The position numbers and the translations under genes were made by a program. From positions 186,001 to 250,000 of the forward strand of contig JAHLKG010000023.1 of NCBI GenBank assembly GCA_025526995.1: 64,000 nucleotides of DNA. The letters are read 5' to 3'. Positions within the stretch are counted from its first letter, which is position 1. Every line of letters begins with the position of its first letter. Under the pieces are notes generated by a model that was not told where the DNA came from, made no database searches, and saw only the letters and a program-made list of their open reading frames with translations. Below are positions 1 through 15,119 of the stretch, one piece after another. This DNA is from Powellomyces hirtus. Its lineage: Eukaryota; Chytridiomycota; Chytridiomycetes; Spizellomycetales; Powellomycetaceae.

Positions 1-58
1 AAGTAAGGATCTAATGTAAGGACCAAACATTGGGTACGCAAGTCTCAACATTCCAATA
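1..58 (-). repeat. LTR fragment of the copia-1 family
   Basis: These bases match the last 58 bases, in + strand order, of the LTR copies ending at 1425, 1770 and 6197, and finish with the same CCAATA terminus. The LTR body lies left of the window. It abuts, and interrupts, the chromodomain of the adjacent Ty3/gypsy fragment. Confidence 0.85.
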
Positions 59-1059
59 GTTGTAACCTGTCCATTTGACTAAGACCTGCTCGGTTTTCCT
101 GTGCCATCTTGCATTTAGGATCTTGTCCCCTCGGTAGGTTTCCTGACTGTTCTCGTCCTTCTCGGGCTCTGGTGGAGTGGTGACCTGTCTGTACGGTGTA
201 CCACCCGGGTCATGGTAACGTCTCAGAATGCTGACGTGAAAGACTGGGTGCAACCCGGTGAACTCCTTGAGTAGTTTGAGCTTGTAGGTGTCAGGATGTG
301 GGCCCTTGTTGCGTACTGTGAATGGCCCAATCCATTGCTCAGCTAGCTTTTTGTTCCTTGTAGTGACGCTGGTGATTGCAATACCCTCTCAATGGAGTAA
401 GACCTTGTCACCCTCTCAGTATGTTTCTGTGTGCTTTTTTGCGATCGTAGTACTTTGCCTGCTGGTCCTGTGCGTCCCGGAGCCGTTGCTGCACAATGCG
501 GCTCACATCGGCAAATTCCTTAATCCGTCTCTCCACGGCGGTTCGCGCCGATTGCCTTATCATCTCTCCCGGGTTAGGTGCTACCCATTGGTTTGGTACC
601 CGAAGAACACGGCCTAGGTCAATCTCGAAAGGAGATAGTCCCGTTGACCTCTGTGGCGTTTGTTTGTAGTTGTACTCGAGTGTGGGGAGTAAACTCTTCC
701 AGTTGGAACCGGCGTAGCCCAGAAAGGGACGCATGATTCCCTTGATCGTCTTGATGGCGTTCTCCGCCTTGCCGTCAGTCTGTTGGTGTTGTGCCAACAA
801 GAGTTCCTGCTTGACGTCGAGTGCCTGCATGAGGTACCGCCAGAATTCTGAAAGCCACTTGAGGTCCCGATTGCTCACGATGGTGTGGGGTAACCCCATA
901 TGGAGAAATGCCTGTTCCAGAAAGAGTTGAGCCATCTCCTAAGCTGTAGCGCGCGTGTTAGTAGGTAGGAGTATCACGCGGCATGAAAGGTAGTCAACAA
1001 TGAGGAGTACGGCATCCGCCGTCTTGGTCAGTCTCTCGCCGGTGTCTTGCGAAGGGTTC
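59..1059 (-). mobile_element. Ty3/gypsy (chromovirus) integrase C-terminus and chromodomain, fragment
   Basis: Read on the minus strand this is the C-terminal half of a Ty3/gypsy integrase followed by the start of a chromodomain. It is a paralogue of 59247-60270. The open stretch 408-935 contains the integrase core end (QQTDGKAENAIKTIKGIM, with the catalytic glutamate), and 59-253 contains LHPVFHVSILRRYHDPGG and the chromodomain start KILNARWH. The two stretches are in different frames and the chromodomain is cut after KWTGYN by an LTR, so it is a dead fragment. It lies between two LTR copies of an unrelated copia family. Confidence 0.9.
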
Positions 1060-1425
1060 TATTGAAGATATCGACGTTTCCAGTACTTTATCGGAAATGC
1101 AGAGGATTGGCCAAATTCGATGCAGCCTCCAGTAGAGTTTATAAAGGGGGCTTACAGAGCTCTTCTGTGATGCAGATGACGGTGTATAATAGTCAGATGC
1201 ACGGAGATGTAATGTATGTGAATGTATTCTATGTCTTAAAGTCTTATCGGTAATGTTTTGCTTGGAGCGTTCTAATCTACTTTTTCTCCAATCACGTGAT
1301 CACACGTGATCCAATTCAGCTCTTAGCGTTACCAGTATGGCGGTCACACATTCTAGTCGGAGAATCCAAGTAAGGATCTAATGTAAGGACCAAACATTGA
1401 GTACGCAAGTCTCAGCATTCCAATA
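1060..1425 (-). repeat. Solo LTR, copia-1 family (copy A)
   Basis: A 366-base copy of the LTR also found at 1426-1770 and 5831-6197. It starts TATTGAAGATATC and ends CATTCCAATA on the + strand. It carries the conserved LTR sequences ATCACGTGATCACACGTGAT and TCTTATCGGTAATG. No internal region is attached on its left, so it is a solo LTR joined head to tail to the next copy. Confidence 0.85.
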
Positions 1426-1770
1426 CTTCCAGTACTTTATCAGAAGTGCAGAGGATTGGCAAATTTGATGCAGCCTCCAGTATACATTGAAAAAGGTTTA
1501 CAGAGCTCTACTGTGATGCAGATGATGGTGTACTGTTGTCAGATGTACGGGGATGTAATGTATGTGAAAGTATTTTTTGTGTCTTAAGTCTTATCGGTAA
1601 TGTGTTGCTTCGAGTGTTCTAATCTACTTTTTCTGCAATCACGTGACTACACGTGATCCAATTCAGCTCTCAGCGTTACCGGTATGATGGTCACACGTTC
1701 TAGCGGAGATTCCAAGTTAGGATCCAATGTAAGGACTAACGTTGAGTGCGCAAGGCTCAACATTCCAATA
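1426..1770 (-). repeat. 3' LTR of copia-1 (copy B, truncated)
   Basis: 345 bases matching LTR copies A and C but missing the outermost bases that contain TATTGGAGATATC. It ends with CATTCCAATA at 1770 and is followed by the element's polypurine tract. Confidence 0.85.
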
Positions 1771-1783
1771 CAACCCCTCTCCA
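1771..1783 (-). promoter_or_regulatory. Polypurine tract of copia-1
   Basis: Immediately inside the 3' LTR, the minus strand reads GGAGAGGGGTTG. A purine-rich run at this position is the usual plus-strand primer of an LTR retrotransposon. Confidence 0.6.
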
Positions 1784-1809
1784 AGCAATCGATCCGCGAT
1801 GAAGGGATT

Positions 1810-4037
1810 TTACTCATTCGGGAGCTCCATCATGGACGCTTTTGTCATTGGTGTGATGGTGTTACTGTAGTGCTTGATGCACATGCTTTTGTGATGGTAT
1901 TGGAATGCCAGGGCCGGTAAGGGCTTTGTAAGGGAATTGGCGACCATTTCAGCAGTCGGTAAGTACTCCAGATGAATGTCGTTATTGATGTGATCATGGA
2001 TGAAGTGATGTCGAATGTCAATGTGCTTGGTATGGACGTGATGCACGGGGTTCATTGCCAACAAGATGCATGACTGATTGTCTTTGTAGATCGTTGTGGG
2101 TCGAGAATTTCTTCGAGATATTCACGGATTTGGAGTTCTTGCAGAAGTGAGCAAAGCCAGATTGTTTCTCGAGTGGCCAAAGAAAGTGCCATGTATTCAG
2201 CTTCGGTAGATGAGAGAGCAACGGTGGGTTGGCACATCGAAGCCCAAGTGACAGGGCCCGCATTGCCAATGTAGAAAGGGTAGCCGGTGATCGACTGTTG
2301 ATCAATGATATTGTTTCCCCAATCGGCATCGCTGTAGCCGTGAAGGGTTACGTTGTTTCCTCCAATGCAGAGGCTGTAATTGGATGTTCCCCGTAGGTAG
2401 CACAGGACGTGCTTTGCAGCTTGCAGATGTTGTGGCGAAGGGTTCCTTGCGAAGCGAGAAAGCATACTGACCGCAACAGCAATGTCAGGGTGCATGCATA
2501 TCATCAGGTACATGAGAGAACCAACGATTTCGCGATATTCTCCTTCTTGCGGGTTAGGTGAAGTCTTTGTATTTTCGACTTTGTAGGGTTCGAGCTTGGT
2601 CTGGTCCATCGGAGTGTTGACGGGCTTGCAATCTTGCATACCAAAGCGCTCGAGAATGTCATTTACATATGACTCTTGATTGAGGTAGATGACGTGCCTT
2701 GAGTAATCGCGTCGAACTCTCATTCCAAGGTAGTGGTTGACTTCGCCTAGGTCTGTCATGTTGAACTCGTTGTGCAGGGATGTCTTGATTGATGAGATTT
2801 CCGATTCGGTCTTTGCGAAAATGAGGAGATCGTCAACGTAGACGGAGATGTACTGTGATGAGTCACTTTCAGGTAGAGTTCTGATGTAAACGGCATTGTC
2901 ATTTGCCAGGCGCTTGAATCCCAAGGAGGTCAGTTCCTTGTGAAGTAGGGAGTACCATTTGCGCAGGGCTTGTTTCAGACCGTATAGGGCCTTTCGGAGT
3001 CGAAGGATGGTCCCAGGCGGAAAGCCAGAGCCTTCAGGGGCATAGATTAGGATGGTCTCGGTAACAATCCCATTCAGGAATGCGGTTACTACATCCATTT
3101 GATGGCATTTCAAGCCTAGGCTGGCGGCGAGAGCAAGGAGGACGCGTTGGGTAGCAATCTTGGCAACCGGAGCGTAGGTTTCATTGTAGTCGATACCGTA
3201 GCGTTGTTCGAAGCCTTTCACTACAAGCCGGGCCTTGTATCGTTGGGGTTGACCATTCAGGTCTCGCTTGATCTTGAATACCCATTTGGTGCGGATGGGC
3301 CGTTGATTGTGCGGTAAGGATTTGGGGTTAATGACTTCCCATGTTTCATTGGTATGAAGGGACTTCAATTCGGCATTTACGGCCTTGGTCCACTTCGGCG
3401 CGTCGTCTGATGAGAGCGCTTGTTTGTAGGTTTGGGGTTCTTCGGTACTTGCAGCCGAAAGAGCAATTGCCGTCTTCTCGTTGATGTAGTCGGTGAAGAC
3501 CGTCAAATGATTGACATTTTTGAGCGGTTCCCATGTATTATCTTCGTCTTCAAATCCTAGCCATTTGCAGAGGAATTCGGAGCCTTCCGGGCCATCACGT
3601 GAGTCAAGAATCTCTTTGACTTCGTAGAGTTCTTCGAGCGGGATGTAGTCTTTCGCTAGTTCGAGTGCTGCGGTTTCGTTGAACGTTACATCGCAAGAAA
3701 TGACTATTTCTTGACAGTTGTCATCCCAACAGCGGTAAGTGCCATCAAATTTGTAACCAATGAGTTTCAGATGTGTGGTGCGCAGTGCCAACTTTGAGAC
3801 TTGTTTTCTCTTGACGAGATGCATGAAGCCATTGGCCCAAATCACACAAAGGTGAGAAAGTGAGGGCTTTTTGCTGTTGAGCCGTTTGTACGGCAAAATG
3901 TTGTTATTGGACTTGTGGGGATGGCGATTCCGTAAGTAGACTGATGTAGCTGCTAACTCGGTCCAGAGTTGTTTTGGGATGCCGTATGAGTGTTCCAATG
4001 AACGAATGGTGTTCAACAGGGTGAGGTTGAACCTTTC
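1810..4037 (-). pseudogene. pol: copia-1 pol: integrase end, chromodomain, reverse transcriptase, RNase H
   Basis: The main open frame (2052-4016, 654 codons) starts inside the integrase C-terminus (IPKQLWTELAATSVYLRNR). It is followed by a chromodomain at codons 131-178 (YEVKEIL, FLCKWLGF, NTWEPLKN), then a Ty1/copia RT with RYKARLVVKGF, QMDVVTAFLNG, ALYGLKQA and the catalytic YVDD at codons 393-396. RNase H shows SDADWG and STEAEYMAL. A one-base shift near 2100 moves the frame; 1810-2064 continues with HVHTKHIDIRHHFI and SLTKPLP, the normal end of copia pol. Upstream, a second frame gives SNSVAERFN, which reads across the deletion joint near 4037. The integrase catalytic core is missing, so the protein cannot integrate DNA. 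Confidence 0.9.
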
Positions 4038-4330
4038 AGCTACACTGTTGGACTGTGGGGAATGTCATTCGTAGCGCCATCGCAGTCTTGAATGACGGCG
4101 CTCTCATCTTCAAAGGTTACTCTCTTTCCATCTTTGGCGAGAGCGGAGACCGAGATGAGAGTTTTGGCGAGTTTCGGAACGTAGAGAACATCAGTGAGAG
4201 GTACATCTCTATCTGGAAGCTTCAAGATAGCGTTTCCTTTCGCTTTGGCATCGAGAAAGGCGTTGTTTCCAAATCTGACGCGCGTTGAGTGCTCTTCGTA
4301 GGATTCGAGAATGGAAATGTCATTCGTCAT
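4038..4330 (-). pseudogene. copia-1 protease region
   Basis: Reads HMTNDISILESY, LYVPKLAKTLISVSAL and KDGKRVTFE, the typical Ty1/copia protease that follows the D-S-G active site. The active site itself (LDSGCS) lies at the end of the gag frame and is separated from this stretch only by a TAG, in the same frame. It stops at 4040, where a deletion has fused it out of frame to the end of integrase. Confidence 0.8.
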
Positions 4331-5716
4331 GTGCTATGAGCAGCCCGAATCCAGGTAAGCCAATGTAGTGGCGTTATGTGCTTCTGCAATGTTGGCATTA
4401 GCAGCGGGTTTTAAGGCTTCGACTGCCTTGGCTTTGAGAGGACAATTGAATGGGGTATGTTCATTCGAATTGCATAACCAACAGGGGAAGTTCTGTCTCT
4501 TCTTCGAGTCTGTGGTCTTCTTCGCGTCGGTCTTCTTGTGACTTGAGCCGTCTTTCTTTGAAGGTTGGGCTTTGAGCGCAATGTTTTCGCTCTTCTTGAC
4601 GAATCGGTTATTTTGGTTACTCTTGTTACTTCCGTTATCCAGACGCTTGGCAGCTGCCATGAGGCCATGGAGATCCTTGAAGCTTTGAGTTCTGACGAGC
4701 TCTGCATGATGTTCATTCATTCCACGAAGGTAAAACCACTTGTAGATTTTGAACGGCACCTTCAAGGGGATTTGACTTGTGATCTCCGTGAATGAGGTAT
4801 TGTACTGCAAGATGGAATGACTTCCTTGTCGGAGTCTTTCAAGTTGAGTGAGCAAAGTTTCCTCGTGATCGCTTGGTTGGTAACGCGAGAGGAAGGGAGG
4901 CTTGAAGGATTCCCAATCCGTGATGGGCTCCACCATTCCTTGTTCGGCATCTTTCTGGTGATTTCGATACCATTGTTTTGCTTCGCCAGAGAGCTTCGTG
5001 AAGATGAATGAGAGTTGTTCTTCTTCAGATACAGGTTTTAGGCAAAAGACTAGAGTAAGTTGATCGACGAAGTCGGCGAGTTTTGAGAGATTTCCCGTCC
5101 CGTCGAATGTAGATACTGCATCGATCGCAGATTTGAAGTATGCGAATGATGTACGTTGTGCGTCCCGATCATTGCTCTTTCTGCTGCTCGTAGTTGTTGT
5201 GCTCTCCGTTGGGGAAGACGGACGAAAGTGAGGGGCAACTGGGGCTTCAACTTCGCCGTGAGTAATGTGTTGATGTAGAAAAGGGTACTCAAGGCCCGCT
5301 TTTGGGCTTCTCATCGGTGAAACTGCCATAGGATGACCACCGATATGAGGCTTTTCGTACTTCTCGGGTTGTTGATGGGAAGTTGATGTAGCGAGAGGGT
5401 TTGAACTAGTCAATAAAGCCCTCTCCAACCTGTCCATCCGATGGTCCAGCTTTTTGTCGATTTCCATCTTGAACCTCTGCAGAATTTGCATGACAATGTC
5501 AGTCGGTACTTCGGACGGTACTATCGCCGAGTCTGCGTGAATTTCTCCATGATTCATCTCATCCACATCGGCATCTGCGTCGTGGGAATCATGGTAGATC
5601 GAGGCATCTATATTAACGTCTTCTTCAGCGTCAGGACCCCGTTGGGCTTCTCGTGTGGCTTGACGGGCTTGTTGGCGGGTCTGCACTCCTTGAATGGGAG
5701 ATCTTGCAGTAGGCAT
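4331..5716 (-). pseudogene. gag: copia-1 gag with CCHC zinc knuckle
   Basis: A 460-codon frame from an ATG at 5716, about 100 bases inside the primer-binding site. It has a low-complexity N-terminus, a central capsid-like region (SFIFTKLSGEAKQWYRNHQ, near codons 235-255), a basic linker and a CCHC knuckle CWLCNSNEHTPFNC near codon 415. It ends with the protease active-site segment LDSGCS and a TAG at 4331-4333. The frame stays open past the TAG, so gag and protease were once continuous; the TAG is either a nonsense change or a readthrough codon. Confidence 0.85.
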
Positions 5717-5816
5717 CTTGACGGTGTGCTCGGTACTTTCTTGGCACTTGAATTTGACGGAAGACTTGTAGTTTACAGGTTTTACAAAGGGAGAATGAGT
5801 CGAATTCGACCGGTCT

Positions 5817-5830
5817 CAGGGCTCATAACC
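5817..5830 (-). promoter_or_regulatory. Primer-binding site, copia-1 (initiator tRNA-Met anticodon arm)
   Basis: The minus strand directly after the 5' LTR reads GGTTATGAGCCCTG. This is complementary to the anticodon stem-loop of fungal initiator tRNA-Met (CAGGGCUCAUAACC), the half-tRNA primer used by copia-type elements. The same 14 bases occur in a second copia element at 54294. Confidence 0.8.
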
Positions 5831-6197
5831 TATTGGAGATATCGGCACTTCCAGTACTTTATCGGAATTGCAGAGGATTGGCCGAATTCGATGTGGCCTC
5901 CAGTATACTTTGTAAAGGGGGTTTACAGAGCTCTTCTGTGATGCAGATGACGATGTAGTGTTGTCAGATGCACGGAGATGTAATGTATGTGAATGTATTT
6001 TTATGTCTTAAAGTCTTATCGGTAATGTTTCGCTTCGAGCGTTCTAATCTACTTTTTCTCCAATCACGTGATCACACATGATCCAATTCAGCTCTTAGCG
6101 TTACCGGTATGGCGGTCACGCGCTCTAGTCGGAGAATCCAAGTAAGGATCTAATGTAAGGACCAAACGTTGGGTACGCAAGTCTCAACATTCCAATA
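5831..6197 (-). repeat. 5' LTR of copia-1 (copy C)
   Basis: 367 bases, the most complete LTR copy. Its ends are TATTGGAGATATC and CATTCCAATA on the + strand, a TA...TA terminus instead of the usual TG...CA. The primer-binding site begins at the adjacent base, which fixes the inner boundary. Confidence 0.9.
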
Positions 6198-6199
6198 TT

Positions 6200-6507
6200 G
6201 AAAACTTCGGGGCTATCTTGAAACAGCTTATTTATAGTCTCAAACCCAAACCTACCTCTCGGGTGCAGCTAGAATTAGAAGTAGAAGATATCTGGGCTGC
6301 AATTGAGCCCAGCATCTTGCAGAATCTTGTTAAAAGCATGCCGCAACGCATGCAAGCGGTGCTCGCAGCTGAAGGAGGGCCGACGTGTTATTAGATAGAC
6401 TAGATCAGCCTTGTGACTGTGATGATATGCGGATATCGCGTTTCCGAGTCATGTGACTGGGAAAATAATCTAGGGGGGGGGGTCCGCGTCTTTCTGACAG
6501 GGGACTG
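6200..6507 (+). mobile_element. Tc1/mariner transposase C-terminus and 3' terminal inverted repeat
   Basis: Codons 6200-6394 read ENFGAILKQLIYSLKPKP, then EDIWAAIEPSILQNLVKSMP and end GGPTCY. This is the C-terminus of a Tc1 transposase just after the catalytic DDE residue. Downstream, the minus strand from 6507 starts CAGTCCCCTGTCAGAAAGAC, followed outward by TA, as expected for a Tc1 inverted repeat at a TA target. The 5' part was separated by the copia-1 insertion and is not in the window. Confidence 0.85.
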
Positions 6508-6514
6508 TAGTTTC

Positions 6515-6722
6515 ACTGCAAGCAAAACCTTCTCGTTAAGACTTAAAACAAAAAATATACATTTCATATGTCGACCTCCATGCATCCTACAACGTTACAT
6601 TTTCATCTGCATCACAGAAGAGCCTTGTAAACCTTTACAAAGGCAGTACTAGCAGTTTAGTTGAATCTTGACAAATCCTCTGCATTTCCAATAAAGCACT
6701 GGCAACGGTGATATCTCCAATT
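6515..6722 (+). repeat. Decayed LTR of the copia-1 family, opposite orientation
   Basis: Read on the + strand this resembles the reverse complement of LTR copies A to C: TTAAGACTTAAAAC, CATCTGCATCACAGAAGAG, AAATCCTCTGCATTTCC and the end GATATCTCCAAT. It is much more diverged than the others, so it is probably the oldest copy. Confidence 0.7.
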
Positions 6723-7248
6723 ATTAGGCAGCGGCTAGTAGGGACGGCTGAACTTGCCTACAGCTTCTTCAGCTCGGAATTCCGGGTAGCTGCAGGGCTT
6801 TTTGCAGACAAGATTTAGGAAGTTTGGGATGAAGAGGGGTAGGTACGTGTGCAAATGTATTCAGGCAGTTATATGGAGTGTTCGATGGTGGGGTGTTCTC
6901 TGATAATGCCTGGTCTCGTAAGGCATAAAAAAACTGTCATTTTTGGCCAGACCCAGAAGAGCAGCCATGGCACGGAGGACGAGTGAGGCACGCGGTCTCG
7001 GGGTCTTTTCTTGCGGTGCGCTTTTGAATCTGTAGCGACTTTGAAGCCAGACGATGATGGGAAGGAGGATGAGGAAGAAAGAAGATTGGCGCCGGAGAAC
7101 CCTTACTTACCCTTGTCTTTTATGTTGTCCGCATGATGCATCTGAATTGGTACAACCCTATGTTGCGTATCAAGCATCAGGAAGGAGACAAACATAACTC
7201 TATCCAACGGAAATGTTCAAAGCTACACTACAATCTAAACATTCCCAT
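6723..7248. other. Intergenic, no gene seen
   Basis: No coding stretch with supporting signals. It probably includes the 3' untranslated region of HPT1 on its right side. Confidence 0.5.
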
Positions 7249-8021
7249 CTACGCTAGCCCTTGCTCCGCAGCTCGTTTCTCATGATCATCTATATCTATC
7301 GCATCCCACGGGTACGCAATCCACAGATCGTCCACATGGGCTGCCGCAATATAGCGCACATCAGACGGCAGTTCGCCGCGCTTCTTCTTCTTTTTATCAT
7401 GCACGACAAACACGCTGATGGTGACGTCCTGGGCCAGGTCTTTGCGGAGATGCTCGTAGGCGTATTGGAGAGTTGTTCTGGGTTGTAGAGAAGGTGTTTT
7501 GGTATGATTATATGTGCTTGTTTATTGGGTTGAAGAAGGTCTCTACACGCGTACCTTGTGTCGTCGACTTCGTCTACAATAAGAGCATTCTTGATGCTCA
7601 ACCCCCATTCATGTGCGCTTGGCCATTGGGTGCGTTTCACCCCCTCGGCCGAGATTTCTTCAGCGTCATCATCATAGAGCTTTCCAAATTCAACGCAAAA
7701 ACAATAAAAGTGAGAAAGCCGCGTGTCGCCATTGTTCCGCACTCGTGTGCCCGGGTTTTCCCTTAAATGTGTCACCCAGTTCACACAACCAGAACTCCAA
7801 GGAGGACCTGCCACCATTATCCATACCTGCAGACCGACGACACGGATCGGGACGGTAACTCCAAAGCGCTTCTTCAGCAACGTGCGTAGAATTCGGGCGG
7901 GAATGAGGCCACCACCACTGATTGCGACGAGGACGTCGGGGGCATGGGCAAACGCGGGCACTGAGTGTGCGATGAGGTTATGAATGTGGCTGTAGGAGTA
8001 GTGTTGTTTACTCGTGGCCAT
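7249..8021 (-). CDS. HPT1: Hypoxanthine(-guanine) phosphoribosyltransferase, HPT1-type
   Basis: Purine-salvage enzyme that joins hypoxanthine or guanine to PRPP in the cytosol. Three exons, 7827-8021, 7555-7679 and 7249-7477, give 182 residues with all phases consistent (GTATGG...AAAG and GTACGC...CCAG introns). The N-terminal part has ISGGGLIPARILRTLL, the loop that binds pyrophosphate in this family. The PRPP signature is NALIVDEVDDTRTTL, whose DDTR/TTL is split by the second intron. The C-terminus has DLWIAYPWD, matching the base-binding region of fungal HPT1/XPT enzymes. The VDEVDDTRTT form and the length favour HPT1 over bacterial-type HPRT; a xanthine-specific paralogue cannot be ruled out. 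The start is the first ATG, with no upstream exon needed. Confidence 0.93.
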
Positions 8022-8161
8022 TTTGTTGCAGACGTTTAATGTGTGTTTTGTTTCTTTTTGGTTGGTTTACTGATTGACTGTCACAAAAGTGGCTTCGTGT
8101 TTACAAGAATGCAAGGGTTTTCAGGCCCCTGCACCGTTTGTCCGAGGACGTAAGTGCCGTG

Positions 8162-8211
8162 CGGCCAGGCCAGCGTCAACTGGCCAGGACAAGGGGGGGG
8201 GGGGGGGGGGA
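8162..8211 (-). other. Hairpin and G/C homopolymer 3' of Fanzor
   Basis: Just after the Fanzor stop (minus-strand sense) come an 18-base C run and a GGCCAG-CGTCAA-CTGGCC perfect stem-loop. OMEGA guide RNAs of Fanzor and TnpB usually overlap the gene's 3' end, so this is the first place to look for one, but no RNA is demonstrated here. Confidence 0.3.
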
Positions 8212-8225
8212 ATAACTATAACTAT

Positions 8226-10895
8226 TTACTCAGACTCAGACTCAGATCTACTCAGATGGGCTGGCCTGCCATTCCCGTCAATCATGGAACGGACAATAAG
8301 ATCAAAGTTCCTGACGCTTGCCATGTCTCGGTTCCAGTACAGGTATGGCAATCCTGTTCGAGGACTTGGCGGCCATCCCGCAGCGGCGCATTCTGCACAA
8401 CCGAGCTGAGAGAGAGAGAGAGTTTAGGCACCCGAGAACACCAAAAGACTTGCGCTAACACACTCACCAAACCATAGACTTCTTCAAGAATGTGCTCCCG
8501 CCACGGCCGTGCAGAGGGGCGCTTTGGCAGGACGTTCCTGGAAAGGCGAGTGTGACAGTGCGGGCAGAAGGAAGAAGTTCTGAACTCATCGATGAGGAAG
8601 CAAGGTATGTGGTGCTTGTTGAAAAGCTTTCGGAAACCTGCAACCTTTGTCGGAGCGTGAAACTTCTTGTGCCTGGCACGTGCCTCACTTTGCCAATCGC
8701 CCAACACGACCATGAGCTTGGGGCTAAAGTATGCCCGCATGCGCTGAATCAGCAAGTCTTCAGACCGCTGACGAAGCCGAAATGCATTGACCTTCATGAG
8801 TGACCAGTTTTCGCTTTTACGGAGGGTTGCTAGAGGTGTGGAGACAGTCATTAGTCGACAGACATTGACAACATTGACAAGATCTTGAAGTCGTTGATGT
8901 TTAGTCCCTTGACATCACATCTGGCCACATACCGCCAGCATAGAATTCTGAGAGAAGGGGATAAACGTCTGCTTGCCATGTAAGCCAATCTTGAAAGCTG
9001 TTCACGTTCATAGTGGCGTACGAAGGGGTTTCTCGTTCGATGTCCTCAATCCGTTGCCGCGGCCCCACAAAGCCTGATGGATATGGAGCAGGCCTTGATC
9101 CGAGAAACAGCTGGTGGCGACGCGTCTTTCTTTCCCTCGTGTCATTCGCTCGCTGGGATGATGTGTACCGCATAGTCCTGCAAGCGTTGGCACCCTGAAC
9201 GCCGGGTTGATGCAACTCCTTCATGAACAGAAGATCGCGCTTGTTGGGGTCAATCAAGATGATCTGGCGCCTTGATGCAGCGGCATCAACTTGTTGAAGG
9301 CGAGTAAGATTTGCGGGATGATCGATGTACATCCGTCTCAGCTCGGTTTTCCTCATCGCCTTAGTCATCCTTTTTTTCGGGCCACCTCTGCCGGCTTTAG
9401 ATGCAAGAGGTGATTTGAGCATGACAGATATGCCTGTGCCGTCTGTCGATATGGTGCCATCAAACTGGTGCGTGCCCCGTATGGGCACGGAAGATTCGGC
9501 TTGTCCTCGAACCTGATATACGGTGCGACCCCATTGATGGAAGGCGGAATGCGAAAGATTGAAGCACTCTCCCCAGAGCCGGTGGTGCTGACCTTTAAGG
9601 CTGAGCTTGCGGTGCGACTTCAGGAGGACTACATCCCGGAGCAACTTTGTGTCAATGGTCGTGTATGCCAGTATATGACCACGCTGCAATGGAAGCGCGT
9701 TGAAAAGAGCGAACTCCCAAGTTTCAAATCGACGGGCAAGATTCAGATAGGCACGCACGTATCTCTTGGGATAAATGACAACGTCCACATCCACATTAAC
9801 ATCAGACTCTCTGTTTCCGGCCCCAGTCCACAAGTTGAAAGCACGGTCAGGCAGCAGTGCCCAGACTTCCTCGAGGACTTCGAATTCCAAGGATGTCAAG
9901 TTGGACTGCAGGTTGGCAAGTGTGTCTTGGGATTGCCACGCAGCTTCAGGCGAGAGCGTGTATTTTTTGACGATTGCAGCCGCCCTCCAGAGCCGATGGA
10001 TGGCCGCACGCGCATTCGGTCGTGACCATGGTCGCCGGGCCAATATTCGAGTCAGCTCCTTGACACCCAACCGCCAGTTGATGCAAGATCGCACCTTATC
10101 GCAAAAATGCATTTTGATGTTGGTGTTGATGTTGGTGACAATGCTGGTTGCGGTGAAGTTGATCCCATTCTGAATATAGGACCCATGAGTGGAGGGAGCA
10201 AATCTGGCAGCCGTTGTGAATTGCTGCATGATAGGTCGGAGACTTGTCGTGATTGCTACCTTTCTTGGCGCGCGAGGGTTGTATGCAGGGTTTTGGAGAA
10301 GTGTGAGAACAATCTGTACATGTTTGTCGTCGACGACTGGAAAGACAGCGTTTGGCGCAATCTGCATCAGCCAGAACTTGATAGCCCATGTCCCATGTTG
10401 GGCATGTTGATGCATTGCTGCGACGTATGACCGTAATCTCGACAACTGCGCAGCCGTGCCAATCCAGGCCGCATCAAAATGGCCCTTGTTGCTGACCACA
10501 CTAGACGCGGGAGGATCTCAAAGCTTCCTCCTCCTCATTCTCTGTCGGATCGCGGGTCGGTCAGAGGGAGATTTGGGAGGCTCCGAGCTGAAGGACTCAT
10601 CGTCGTCGCTGGAAGAGGAGCTTGGGTCTCCCGGATCGTCGTCAGCAAACAGATTCCGAAGTAGGCTGGCAGGAACTCGACGGACAAAGGGTGGGGGTTT
10701 GACAGGCGGTGGGGGAGGTGCAGGAAACGGAGCATTGGCATCCTGTGGACAGGGCGGCCTGGAAAGCGACAATGCATTAACATGCTGTGAGATTGGCTGT
10801 GGACTCATAATAACAGCGGCATCTTACCTCTTTCTTCTTCTTTTCTTCGGGGGCCACCTGTCATCGTGATCGGGGAATGATGTTGTGCGAATCAT
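8226..10895 (-). CDS. Fanzor (eukaryotic TnpB-like RNA-guided nuclease), one in-frame TGA
   Basis: Fanzor proteins are eukaryotic relatives of TnpB that use a guide RNA to cut DNA, usually from within transposons. Four exons, 10828-10895, 8933-10758, 8468-8829 and 8226-8405, fit in phase to 812 codons including the stop. Exon 1 ends in the basic PPKKRRRKR, a likely nuclear localisation signal. Landmarks: STDGTGISVML near codon 465; RuvC-I ILIDPNKRDLLF with Asp about codon 526; VVLGDW near 676; RuvC-II LIDEFRTSSFCPHCH with Glu about 713 and the first zinc-finger Cys pair; second Cys pair GCAEC near 757; RuvC-III YWNRDMASVRNF with Asp about 779. All three acidic residues are present. The only defect seen is a TGA at 10518-10520 (codon 103, LRRRK region), which a CGA to TGA change would explain. 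No alternative intron removes it. It could be a pseudogene, an allele or a sequencing error. Confidence 0.88.
8861..8903 (+). repeat. Hairpin-forming repeat, copy 1 (in Fanzor intron 2)
   Basis: Matches 10902-10944 at 37 of 43 positions in the same orientation. The core AACATTGACAA ... TCGTTGATGTT is an imperfect inverted repeat around GATCTTGAAG. It lies inside the intron between the second and third Fanzor exons. Confidence 0.6.
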
Positions 10896-10901
10896 GCTCT
10901 T

Positions 10902-10944
10902 GACATAGACAACATCAACGAGATCTCGAAGTCGTCGATGTTTA
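10902..10944 (+). repeat. Hairpin-forming repeat, copy 2 (just 5' of Fanzor ATG)
   Basis: AACATCAACGA ... TCGTCGATGTT pairs with one mismatch. It starts 7 bases upstream of the Fanzor start codon, so it would lie in the 5' leader of the transcript. Confidence 0.6.
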
Positions 10945-11303
10945 ACTTAATGGCGAGGTACACTGGAATGCACACAGAAATGTTGTCAATCAATGAAATG
11001 GTCAAAAAACGCGAAATCAAATAACTCTGTCAATACCTGTCCAAATGGGCCGAGACAGCGATATTCCTACTCGCCAGGGCCCACTCTACGATGGGGTAAT
11101 GCGGCGGGGATCTGTGTTGGGTTGGGAAAGCGAAATGCGCACAGAGATGTTGTCCGTAGTCAAAAAAAAAACCCGTCAAGAAAAGTAGGGGAAGATTGTA
11201 ATAAGAGGAGTAGAGTAAACAAGTATGAGGCGGGAAGCGGATATATTTCTAAACGGTTAGAGAGGTACTCCAGTATTTATACTTCCTGCGTATTGCGCTT
11301 ATA
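10945..11303. other. Region upstream of Fanzor
   Basis: No coding signal. Two loosely similar stretches contain TGCACACAGAAATGTTGTC (10970s) and TGCGCACAGAGATGTTGTCC (11130s), which may be a short direct repeat. Confidence 0.35.
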
Positions 11304-11466
11304 GGGCCAATTATTAAGCCGCTATGCCGCTTTTTCTTATCGATCATGGATACAGATGATCCATCTCTGTGCTGGGGGAAATGGCTGTGCATTATGGCAG
11401 GGCTGCGGCGCGTTTTTCATATGATACACTGTATAATAAGCGGCGGAGCGGCTTAATAATTGGCCC
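11304..11466. mobile_element. 163-base MITE with 27-base terminal inverted repeats
   Basis: The left end GGGCCAATTATTAAGCCGC and the right end's reverse complement are identical over the first 20 bases, and 25 of 27 overall. Each end is followed outward by TA, and the symmetry continues as CTTATA/TATAAG. No coding capacity. TA flanks suggest mobilisation by a Tc1/mariner-type transposase. Confidence 0.7.
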
Positions 11467-12812
11467 TATAAGCCCCAGCATTGGGCGCTTTACCCAAAAA
11501 GGAAGTATCCAGGACGCCGAATGGGAACGGCACTTGTGAGAATGGCTCAGTCACCATTGACTCATCGCCGAGACGAACTGCACACGTCTCAGAACTGCAC
11601 TGACAGTCGACGAAGTTCCCTCTCCCGAGGAAGCCTCTGTGAGGATACTGACTGAGACTTGGCCTAAAGCCTGCAAAGTACATTCATTCACTTGTATTCG
11701 CCAACATCACTGAATTCAGCTCATTAACCCTGTAAACTCTTCAAACAAGGCTCTCTCACAAAAGACAGCAGCACCAAGCTACGACTCGATCACCAAAGCA
11801 CGAGCCACAAAAGGCCATCTGCCATGGAAGGCAAAAACAACGTCGGGAGCTGCTCCACCATTCAATCCCACTCTCCCCACCGCCCCACTCACATTGGGGG
11901 ATGTTTACCCATCAAATACTAGTCACCCAGCCCCCCATCCTTGCGGTCTTCCCTCGGAGTCTTCAAGGAGTCGACAATTAACCCGCAGTCTTCTCAGGAG
12001 ACGACCTTTGACATTACCTTTGCCGGGGGGCGGGGCCTCCCTCACCTCCCTCACGGGGGAGGCCACCCCCCCCCCCCCCCCCGGCGGCAAAACACCTAGC
12101 GAGTGCAAGGATATTTTCGACTGGCCTGGCAAGGTACTGTTAGTTAGTCGCTCTGCTCACCTTGGGCACGTTTCCATCTATTTCTGCTCTTCTCACCGCG
12201 TCTCTCACACCTACAGTGTTCTATGGCTTCTGCTGGGGCGGTTCTGCTCCTGGGCCGGGTGCCCCTCGGGCCTGAGCATCGAGGAAGAACCTCGAGGAAG
12301 AACCACGAGCGGAGAACATTCGACGTCTACTTCTAACACCTCATCCGATCCTTCAATGACAACATCATAGTCGCGTGTTTTGGTGCAGATGAGGGAAGCC
12401 AAATGCCAGGTACAGATGAGGCAAGCAATGGGTGAATTGGTGGCACACATGGGTGCAATTTGTTGGCGGCTGTTGCAGATGTACTAAACAAAAATAAATA
12501 AATAAATTAATATATTATGTAAATGAATATGTTATGTAAATGAATCTGCGCAATTGGAATACTGGTGTAAGAATTCCCTGTCACGATTCCCTGTGTATAA
12601 ATTCATCGCGGCTGTCGAAAACCTGTCAAAATTCTTTCACGATTTAGGCCACCGACAACATCAACGACTTGCCGTAGTCTTCAACGTTTGCAATCATCCA
12701 CGACATCGACGACTTGCCAAAATCTGCAACGTTTCCAACTTCTCTGACCCTCGGCAACGTCAAACATCTCTCTACCTTTCCAATCTTTCTTTACGCGCGC
12801 GCTCTACCGAAA
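11467..12812. other. Long non-coding stretch before the 303-residue ORF
   Basis: Open frames at 11894-12370 have no family signature and run through a C/G homopolymer near 12068-12083, so I do not call them. A TATAAAT at 12596-12602 lies about 215 bases before the ATG at 12813 and is a plausible promoter. The 12650-12735 part holds two copies of the hairpin-like repeat. Confidence 0.4.
12654..12734 (+). repeat. Hairpin-like repeat, copies 3 and 4 (degenerate)
   Basis: Two adjacent units, GACAACATCAACGACTTG (12654 on) and GACATCGACGACTTGCC (12702 on), each followed by a CAACGTTT segment. They resemble copies 1 and 2 but pair less well. They sit in the putative 5' leader of the ORF starting at 12813. 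Confidence 0.45.
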
Positions 12813-13724
12813 ATGCCCCCCAAAGCAGCTCTCGACCATGCACTCTGCCATGTAGATCCTGCAGGCATACAGGGAGTGGCTTATGACGGCGGAATGTACG
12901 ATTGGTCACTTTCCGATTGTAACACCTGGGGAGCTGTTTTGGGAAAGATATTGGTGGAATGGCTTTGTTGCCTAACCGGAGTCTCCAGCCCCCCGCCGGA
13001 TGCTCTAAAGCTGCTGTACGGGAGGGTTCCTGGCATTGCCCGTCCCCCTGGTTCCCAAGCGCCAGGATGGCTTACGGCTGCTGTCTCGCCGAGGCCGGGT
13101 CACTGCGAAGGTGGAGGCAACACCATCCCCCATATCCCACTACCAACCCAGATCGGTCAGTCGCTTCACACCATCTTCGGTGCTCTAGATGTGGTCCCCT
13201 CTGCCAGGGCAGAGCGCATAGGGTTTTACAGAAAAGCCACAGATGTGGGCGCACATATCAAACCCGCTCCTCTTGAAGGAATTGTTGAAACAGATCCCGC
13301 AGACGGTGTCACTCTGAAAACGGTGCAATGGGTTCTTACGGGGGCTGGCCCCAGGAGCAAGACCTGGAATTTCCACAAGTGGGATAACCAGAATAGGCAA
13401 CAAGCAGTGGCCATCTTGGAATCGGCAAGGGCCACCATCGAGGCCATCTACGATGCCCACATCTGCCTGCAGGAAGTACTGCTCACCAGCGATTCGCCGG
13501 TACTCAGTGCTCCGTTAGCATATCACCACTTTCGAGCCATTAACGCCATCGCTCGTCTGCAAGAGAGCCTTACCATTATCCAGCTCAACGGCAACTTTGT
13601 GTTCATGGCGGACATGAACAACGTTGATATATGCGTAGCCTTCGGGAATAGCAGTGCTATACCACCTTCAGGGTGGGCACCCTCTTGTCAACTTCCGCAT
13701 CGCTGGTTTATGGATCCCATTTAA
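12813..13724 (+). CDS. Uncharacterised 303-residue protein
   Basis: A single-exon frame from ATG 12813 (context GAAAATGCC) to TAA. I do not recognise a family. The sequence is balanced in composition, not repeat-derived, and contains WSLSDCNTWGAVLGKILVEW near residue 30, a proline/glycine-rich middle, VETDPADGVTLKTVQWVL, and a helical C-terminal part (QAVAILESARATIEAIYDAH). No signal peptide or transmembrane helix is evident. It converges with the dioxygenase gene at 13899-15119 and has hairpin-like repeats at both its 5' and 3' sides, so it may be cargo of the same mobile unit. A TATAAAT lies 215 bases upstream. Confidence 0.5.
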   Translation: MPPKAALDHALCHVDPAGIQGVAYDGGMYDWSLSDCNTWGAVLGKILVEWLCCLTGVSSPPPDALKLLYGRVPGIARPPGSQAPGWLTAAVSPRPGHCEGGGNTIPHIPLPTQIGQSLHTIFGALDVVPSARAERIGFYRKATDVGAHIKPAPLEGIVETDPADGVTLKTVQWVLTGAGPRSKTWNFHKWDNQNRQQAVAILESARATIEAIYDAHICLQEVLLTSDSPVLSAPLAYHHFRAINAIARLQESLTIIQLNGNFVFMADMNNVDICVAFGNSSAIPPSGWAPSCQLPHRWFMDPI

Positions 13725-13818
13725 GTGCATTGGTTATGTCTCTGTGTTAGTATTAGTATAAAGTCTTTCAATATATTCCGGTTCACCACATATGTCCGTC
13801 TGTTGGCTGATCTACGTA

Positions 13819-13885
13819 AGCGACGATTTCAAGAAGTCGCCAACGTCTGCCATCATTGACGATTTCGAGAAGTCGTCAACGTCTG
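13819..13885 (+). repeat. Hairpin-forming repeat, copies 5 and 6
   Basis: Two tandem units: GCGACGATTTCAAGAAGTCGC and TTGACGATTTCGAGAAGTCGTCAA, each able to fold into a stem of at least 7 pairs, each followed by CAACGTCTG/AACGTCTG. They lie between two convergent genes, where they could also serve as a transcription end signal. Confidence 0.55.
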
Positions 13886-13898
13886 TGATAACGGTCCT

Positions 13899-15119
13899 TT
13901 ATGTCGGAATGCCAGTCAAAATCAACTGGTGCATCTTGAAGACAATCGTGAAGCGTTCAATGCCTTTCCACTTCCGTACAAAGTGCTCCAGCGCGAATGA
14001 ACGGATGAAGATAATGTCGCCGCATTGGAAAGGGAACTTGAGTTGCAAGTCGGCGAGGCAGAATTCTCCTTCACGAAAGTCACCGAGACATACAACGGCA
14101 CACCAACCGTAACGGGAGTCGCGCAAGTCACGGTGTTTCTTCACGTACTCGTTTATGACAAGAACCATCATTGCGAACGTCTGGTTGCGGGTGTTTGGGC
14201 CCCAAAACCCGATGCCCGACCGTGGCATTCGTGCCCATGCCTTTCTGTAGGCCGCTGCCATCTCGGGATACAGTGCGGCAAAGCATTTCGTAACGAGTAA
14301 GCACATCATGCGCACGGGAGTGGACTGGATCCAATCTTGCGTGGCTTTGATTTGTAGGTTGCTGCTACGGGACTCGCGCGACACTGTGGGGACCTTCGAA
14401 GCTTGCGCCTGCCAAACACCGAGGTGATAAATGACGTGCAGTTTGGGCTGGTCATCAAAGGTGACATGACGGTTATCAGGTTTCACCATTGGCAAGCTGC
14501 CAGGGGGGTAATTGCGCAAGAAACGTCATAACTCAATTGTCAGATGATCGCAGAGGATTTCGGGGAGTGCGCCAGGTATGTAACAGCACAAACGGCTCTT
14601 TTTGCAGTCGGCGGCAATAAACAGGGTCCTCGGGATCTCAAGATAGCTTTGGGCTTCTTGTATGCTCTTCTCGAACTCCTCTTCGGGTGATAAAGGCTTC
14701 CCCGAGACTGGCGATATCGTTGATGACCGTGCTTGTTGTTTATTCTGTTGCTGCGCCAGATCATCCAGTGAAACGGTCAACTGCTGATCCCACGCCGTCC
14801 TTCGTGCCAGAGCGTCCTCCAAACGGCGTATAACGCAGTTGTAGAACACCGGGAATGGCTTGTCAGAGACAATCAGCGCAGAATTCTCGTGCGTGGGGGA
14901 CCGTATGCTCCACGGCTCTTCCCCCATGCTGCACTCGAGTGGAACCCCATTCACCAAGGCGTCCGTTCTGCGCCATTCATCAGAGGCAAATCCATCGCAC
15001 AGTTCCTGGGAGTACGTTGGATGAAAGCCGAGGTTGCTCTTGCATCTTTGTCGCTTGCGCTTGCCTTGGGCCATCCTGTTCCATGAGAATAGCATTAGAC
15101 TCAAGAATGTCGACGCCAA
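13899..15119 (-). CDS. TET/JBP-like 2-oxoglutarate/Fe(II) dioxygenase, one in-frame TGA
   Basis: The C-terminal part has the double-stranded beta-helix pattern of fungal TET/JBP proteins, which oxidise 5-methylcytosine or thymine in DNA. It shows the iron-binding HRD in NEYVKKHRDLRDS, then WCAVVCLGDFREGEFCLADL, CGDIIFI, the distal iron ligand in ALEHFV, and the 2-oxoglutarate arginine in GIERFTIVF. Upstream is a basic start (GKRKRQRCK) and an acidic linker EEEFEKSIQEAQ. A TGA at 14526-14528 interrupts the frame between the two parts; the same frame continues on both sides. ATGs at 15095 and 15074 are possible starts; a 5' exon in 15168-15422 (ATG at 15422) is possible but not shown. Enzyme class is fairly sure, the substrate is inference. 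Confidence 0.7.

Follow-up and report, generated by a model that had tools for sequence, protein, structure and literature searches.

A probable decayed Fanzor1 gene in a Spu-1-like mobile element of a chytrid related to Powellomyces hirtus

The minus strand of the window (the whole stretch of 64,000 nucleotides that was analysed) carries a four-exon gene, the right end of an element and a predicted guide region; a MITE-like inverted repeat lies on the 5′ side of the gene (Table 1). Spliced, the gene gives 811 residues plus one internal TGA (written X). A first-pass annotation had proposed four exons in phase, and this was borne out: the three introns are bounded by GT/AG, the frame is continuous across them, and all the motif blocks quoted in that annotation are found in the model.

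Table 1. Coordinates of the features at the Fanzor locus (window positions)
Feature	Position	Strand	Remarks
Exon 1	10828..10895	-	Start codon and a basic, NLS-like patch, PPKKRRRK; AG/GT boundary in phase 2
Intron 1	10759..10827	-	69 nt, GTAAGA..CAG; identity 69/69 in C1, 67/69 in C34
Exon 2	8933..10758	-	N-terminal extension, REC/WED region, RuvC-I
In-frame TGA, codon 103	10518..10520	-	Exon 2, before the conserved core
D526 codon	9251-9249	-	RuvC-I, exon 2
N528 codon	9245-9243	-	RuvC-I, exon 2
Intron 2	8830..8932	-	103 nt, GTATGT..TAG; contains dispersed repeat 8867-8902
Exon 3	8468..8829	-	VVLGDW block, catalytic Glu E713 (8587-8585), first zinc-finger CxxC
Intron 3	8406..8467	-	62 nt, GTGAGT..CAG
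Exon 4	8226..8405	-	Second CxxC, RuvC-III D779 (8327-8325), stop codon
Right end of the element, with predicted two-stem omega-RNA scaffold	8102..8193	-	Found again at 15 other genomic places
Predicted guide region, the 16 bases just past the right end	8086..8101	-	By analogy with SpuFz1
MITE-like inverted repeat	11297..11473		177 bp, 39-nt arms, 92% complementary; also present in the C1 copy

For introns 2 and 3 we tried 64 combinations of donors and acceptors. The minimum was two stops, namely the TGA and the terminal stop, and the splice model used here is one among several combinations with this number. The model holds, with GT/AG at all three introns common to the window and to the sister copy C1; a second sister, C34, keeps GT/AG at introns 1 and 2 and has lost the GT of intron 3. 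In the more diverged C19 family the frame is interrupted at the place of window intron 2 and continuous at the place of intron 3. The first exon of C19, MSNQKSPPRKKQRT, also ends in phase 2 at AG/GT, and that of the C4 copy starts with MADGGESPRKRQRL and has the same AG/GT end in phase 2 (sequence read by eye). Since the window, C19 and C4 have equivalent first exons, the NLS-like first exon is common to three families, and intron 1 and the NLS exon of the window are thus supported by two diverged Fanzor families of the same genome. Introns and NLSs in Fanzors have reportedly been described by Jiang and co-workers in 2023. A dispersed repeat of 36 bp occurs twice at the locus, in intron 2 and in the 5′ region of the Fanzor (10908-10943); it matches at 16 places genome-wide when up to 3 mismatches are allowed (control, 0), and the six closest are both places in each of the three sister copies.

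Fanzors are the eukaryotic counterpart of CRISPR effectors. To place the window protein we ran phmmer against proteins of solved structure and obtained SpuFz1, the Fanzor1 of Spizellomyces punctatus, with an E-value of 3.8e-78 over query residues 90-806, followed by the Fanzor1 of Parasitella parasitica (E 6.3e-34); up to E 10, only two other proteins matched (1.2 and 2.9), neither of them related. The alignment with SpuFz1 holds 232 identities in 625 aligned pairs (37%). We took SpuFz1 numbering from the printed alignment, and its offset agrees with published residues such as H21, T22, K25 and N604. In SpuFz1 the Mg-coordinating residues are given as D383, N385, E541 and D606 (PMC10432273); they correspond to D526, N528, E713 and D779, so that all four metal ligands are kept. 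The first-pass annotation was right that all three RuvC acidic residues are preserved; they are D526, E713 and D779. One correction concerns the catalytic Glu, which is E713, in DEFRTSS, equivalent to SpuFz1 E541. VVLGDW is a conserved block, and none of its residues is among the metal ligands listed in the section of PMC10432273 drawn on here.

The order of the motifs agrees as well with what had been claimed for the locus. The Fanzor/TnpB motif D-X(125-275)-[TS][TS]xx-C4 finger-X(5-50)-RD, as given in part of PMC3627910, spans D526 to D779 and was carried by 0 of 2000 shuffles of the window protein. Among the features that the consulted text of PMC10711439 describes, the Fanzor hallmark of a RuvC-II Glu relocated to six residues before the zinc finger is found as E713-FRTSSF-CPHC, and the TDG motif of the Fanzor1 WED domain is present at residue 461. 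The same source has DPG 'near exclusively' in RuvC-I of Fanzor1, typical rather than universal; C19 has DPG and the window DPN, which does not exclude membership of Fanzor1, since the prototype SpuFz1 is also DPN. When scanned with Pfam, the spliced model, exon 2 and two frames nearby gave no family at E ≤ 1, OrfB_Zn_ribbon included. Two deposited relatives behaved alike (P0001, no matches; P0003, two weak unrelated rows), so the library is insensitive to this branch of Fanzors. The proposed Fanzor identity was nevertheless confirmed by homology, through SpuFz1, although the Pfam profiles gave nothing. The match to two solved Fanzor1 proteins, the four conserved ligands and the adjoining right end that resembles an omega-RNA together argue strongly that 10895-8226 (minus strand) encodes a member of Fanzor1, an OMEGA-type family of RNA-guided DNA endonucleases.

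To find its closest relatives we searched about 5.8 billion proteins and scored the 7999 candidates that shared most words with the query. Among these, the relatives are three hypothetical proteins, two from Powellomyces hirtus CBS 809.83 (P0001 and P0002) and one from Geranomyces variabilis (P0003), with identities of 82%, 84% and 37% over 75%, 57% and 86% of the query, respectively. P0001 resembles the window protein in its NLS exon and N-terminal extension; all three differ in being deposited without function, and the Powellomyces models are short (557 and 481 aa). They share the precomputed Pfam label PF26935.1, which may be a new family of the Fanzor branch. A full-text literature search found no paper that names both Powellomyces and Fanzor; supplementary tables, which could list such proteins, lie outside that search. 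An order of RuvC and zinc finger shared with TnpB would also fit a bacterial TnpB present through contamination or recent transfer, but we rejected this origin, whose probability we regard as negligible: the gene has introns, its Glu is relocated to the Fanzor-typical position six residues before the zinc finger, only chytrids are represented among the three protein matches, there are multiple copies in the genome, and the context is fungal.

The Fanzor element extends past the gene to 8102, its last 92 bases being 8193-8102. All the copies that keep the right end (window, C1, C34 and the remnants C1:386k and C11) stop at one and the same base, 8102, in ...TTGTA. Searching the genome with 8060-8300 gave 20 pieces: the window itself, 15 other right ends and four matches to exon 4 only. 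Of the 15, the C1 and C34 genes account for two, another two adjoin remnants of exon 4 (C11 and C1:386k) and 11 are without a Fanzor coding match; as two of these 11 (C40 and C6:1201k) are identical over 1,627 bp, the independent gene-less right ends number ten. In the 13 right ends examined, the flanking bases past the end differ, apart from the identical pair. The pair L061/L062, identical over 1,627 bp on two contigs, would be either a recent duplication or an unmerged assembly. In ghost L061:709-1587 (about 880 bp; also L062), the right end is copied in inverted orientation at the left end.

We aligned 17 right ends for folding, including those of C4, C5 and C19 that the 8060-8300 search had missed, and left out the C1 end, which is partly deleted, the C6 duplicate and a C23 fragment. 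The alignment forms two hairpins with 14 pairs, in which 95.4% of the cells pair, against 28.6-63.4% when one side is displaced along the other. Its covariation score of 0.165 was reached by 0 of 500 shuffles; changes on both sides occur in 2 of the 14 stem pairs, a count equalled by 116 of 500 shuffles. Folded alone, the window right end has a z of -2.54, and five others lie between -0.62 and -2.91. A model built from the 17 ends had 8193-8102 as its sole window match at E ≤ 1 (E 1.5e-24), this sequence being itself part of the model. The pattern of stem 1 gave 25 matches at up to 2 mismatches, against 7 in the reversed control, and 13 at up to 1 mismatch. A stem-2 pattern was discarded for counting right ends, with one unrelated match and known ends missed. 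Rfam over 6000-14000 returned no match at E ≤ 1. Of the 17 aligned copies, 16 have TA as the last two bases of the right end; a TA target duplication, along with terminal inverted repeats, is expected of Spu-1-type elements. A conserved right end that could be used as a scaffold, and that is common to gene-less ghosts, is thus present, and by analogy we consider it with moderate confidence to be an omega-RNA scaffold. Directly before it, at 8193-8210, lies a long C/G homopolymer run whose length differs in the sister copies.

These traits can be set beside those of SPu-1, the element of SpuFz1 (PMC3627910, PMC10432273; PDB 8GKH). In the parts of these papers used here, SpuFz1 has a 75-nt two-stem scaffold, a guide of 14-15 nt and 134 ghost loci (PMC10432273), and it is a single ORF in an element with terminal inverted repeats of 30-33 bp. 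The window protein matches it over the whole core, and both loci have a two-stem right-end scaffold that adjoins the guide (predicted in the window), as well as gene-less ghost elements of about 550-880 bp. Unlike SpuFz1, the window gene has three introns, a long N-terminal extension and a nonsense codon, and its protein departs from SpuFz1 at three of six TAM contacts (Q130, R291 and Y345); unlike SPu-1, the window shows no clear left inverted repeat. P. parasitica Fanzor1 (PDB 9CF0) belongs to the same family as the window protein but is far more distant, and has a RuvC insertion domain according to the portion of PMC11423790 cited here.

Direct matching revealed no left inverted repeat in the window, and the left-end motif of the ghosts, AAAGAAGRRGGACTTGCATCC, was found at just two places with up to 2 mismatches allowed, both exact. 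As the left ends of the ghosts vary, no target motif could be read from them. Homology with the sister copies fades at 11504-11547, beyond the MITE-like inverted repeat, and short stretches of 11546-11877 match the 5′ part of the C11 Fanzor remnant, in the orientation opposite to the Fanzor. Farther on, at 12813-13724 (plus strand), there is an open frame of 303 codons with no Pfam match. On the other side, the predicted guide lies 5′ of a phosphoribosyltransferase gene (PF00156, E 7.3e-10; exons joined by eye), with the start codon 80 bases off. This guide has no second exact match in the genome; allowing 1 or 2 mismatches adds 10 matches, which is below the 22 that the reversed control gives. 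The locus would thus aim at its own insertion site.

We then considered the other Fanzors of this genome (29.3 Mb in 60 contigs). A search for Fanzor copies gave at least 30 match pieces, which were grouped by hand into at least ten places: the window, C1, a split C34, C19, a split C5, C4 and four fragments. C1 and C34 belong to the family of the window, with about 93-94% DNA identity. In C1, three stops fall in the main match piece and a fourth in the piece after it; there are also frame changes, and part of the right end is deleted. In C34, the frame changes within the N-terminal extension, the main piece contains two stops and the intron-3 donor is lost. C34 is moreover split by about 17 kb with LTR-type repeats, the outermost of 259 bp and 95.8% alike, and GCACG stands at both junctions of this stretch. 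C19 and C5 form a second family, 96% identical to each other in DNA, and the C5 copy is interrupted by about 14 kb, each junction of which carries a 375-bp repeat. The Fanzor of C4 (L038:3708-6552) has its RuvC-III Asp replaced, YWNRG instead of YWNRD, and its exon pieces are otherwise without stops but seem frame-shifted. We rejected it as an intact copy on account of YWNRG and a frame change read just before the third matched block. A ghost-like left part abuts its right end.

The C19 Fanzor (L035:4203-6774; G000:C19:652702-655273) has 793 residues once three introns are removed. Its stops are confined to two short intron-like stretches: GTAGCC...CAG, of 57 nt and absent from the window, and GTAAGT...AAG, of 63 nt and at the place of window intron 2. 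The spliced frame is uninterrupted from start to stop and carries DPG, DEYRTSS and YWNRD, that is, the D-E-D triad. Its protein is 47% identical to the window protein, matches SpuFz1 with an E-value of 7.3e-96 and has its nearest deposited relative in the Geranomyces protein (40% identity). C19 is like the window in the design of the first exon, the intron at the intron-2 place and a right end of the same kind; it differs in having DPG rather than DPN, no intron 3, one extra intron and a stem-2 sequence of a second class. From these features, C19 is apparently an intact Fanzor1 and a candidate new nuclease.

The window copy itself lacks a full-length open reading frame. The single TGA at codon 103, which the first-pass annotation gave as the only visible defect, is indeed present and is specific to this copy: the alignment has a sense codon in both C1 and C34, as does the deposited relative P0001. 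The window copy is probably a pseudogene owing to this stop. The dN/dS between the window and C1 is 0.68 over 803 codons, and five comparisons range from 0.49 to 0.89, values that fit mostly relaxed constraint; in the N-terminal extension the ratio exceeds 1 (1.74 to 3.14) on just 6 to 10 changes, too few for a conclusion. The gene could still be productive if exon 1 were spliced to an acceptor past the TGA (an AG ending at 10501 or 10492), and both acceptors are in frame, lead to no internal stop and would use the consensus GTAAGA donor of exon 1. The NLS would then be joined in frame to the core in a product of 725 or 722 residues whose N-terminus would be short, like that of SpuFz1, which has about 20 residues ahead of the homologous core. 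We hold such continued production of protein to be quite unlikely. The intron would have to be 327 or 336 nt, whereas the other introns have 62-103 nt; neither acceptor looks as strong as CTTTCCAG, that of intron 1; the N-terminal extension is normally coding, as it exists in C19, P0001 and P0003; and the joins are not special, since 17 in-frame stop-free ones exist in all. The window copy is mainly a marker of decay, and shows that introns conceal Fanzor genes from simple ORF calls.

With a TGA before the core in the window and C1 and C34 broken in other ways, the Spu-1-like element appears to be decaying. The gene might instead be a domesticated host gene with a function in the cell; its introns, NLS exon and adjoining metabolic gene could be read in this manner, but the several dispersed copies are variously decayed, with a common right end and different flanks, and constraint is weak, so that we find domestication very hard to credit. 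We conclude that the locus is, in all likelihood, a decayed Fanzor1 gene within a Spu-1-like mobile element of a chytrid related to Powellomyces hirtus. By analogy with SpuFz1, an intact copy would enter the nucleus, and the nuclease would bind an RNA that covers the right end and about 15 bases of the host sequence flanking it, and would cut double-stranded DNA wherever this flank is matched beside a short motif. Cutting would favour the return of the element to emptied sites, or aid gene-less ghosts in trans. From the same analogy we infer the transcription of the omega-RNA, the length of the guide, nuclear import and cutting.

A more elaborate possibility is a two-tier OMEGA system, in which the apparently intact C19 Fanzor1 serves ghosts in trans with two classes of omega-RNA, one like that of the window family and the other like that of the C19/C4/C5 family, while the decaying sisters supply guides and the splice bypass may keep the window gene partly alive. 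We regard this as speculative and rather unlikely. To our knowledge, the natural role of Fanzors is unsettled. This genome has, in 29 Mb, one copy that is apparently intact, several that are broken in different ways and about ten independent ghosts, and would be a tractable setting in which to ask whether Fanzor cutting keeps such elements alive.

Finally, an LTR retrotransposon occupies window positions 1-6200, with LTR copies at about 1059-1770 and 5830-6197; from its motifs, we take it to be Ty1/copia-like. Close relatives of it are found upstream of the Fanzor on C19, and also within the stretch of about 17 kb that separates the two parts of the C34 copy. As the LTR element of this kind at C19 lies directly upstream of the 5′ region, the C19 copy may have lost its left end.
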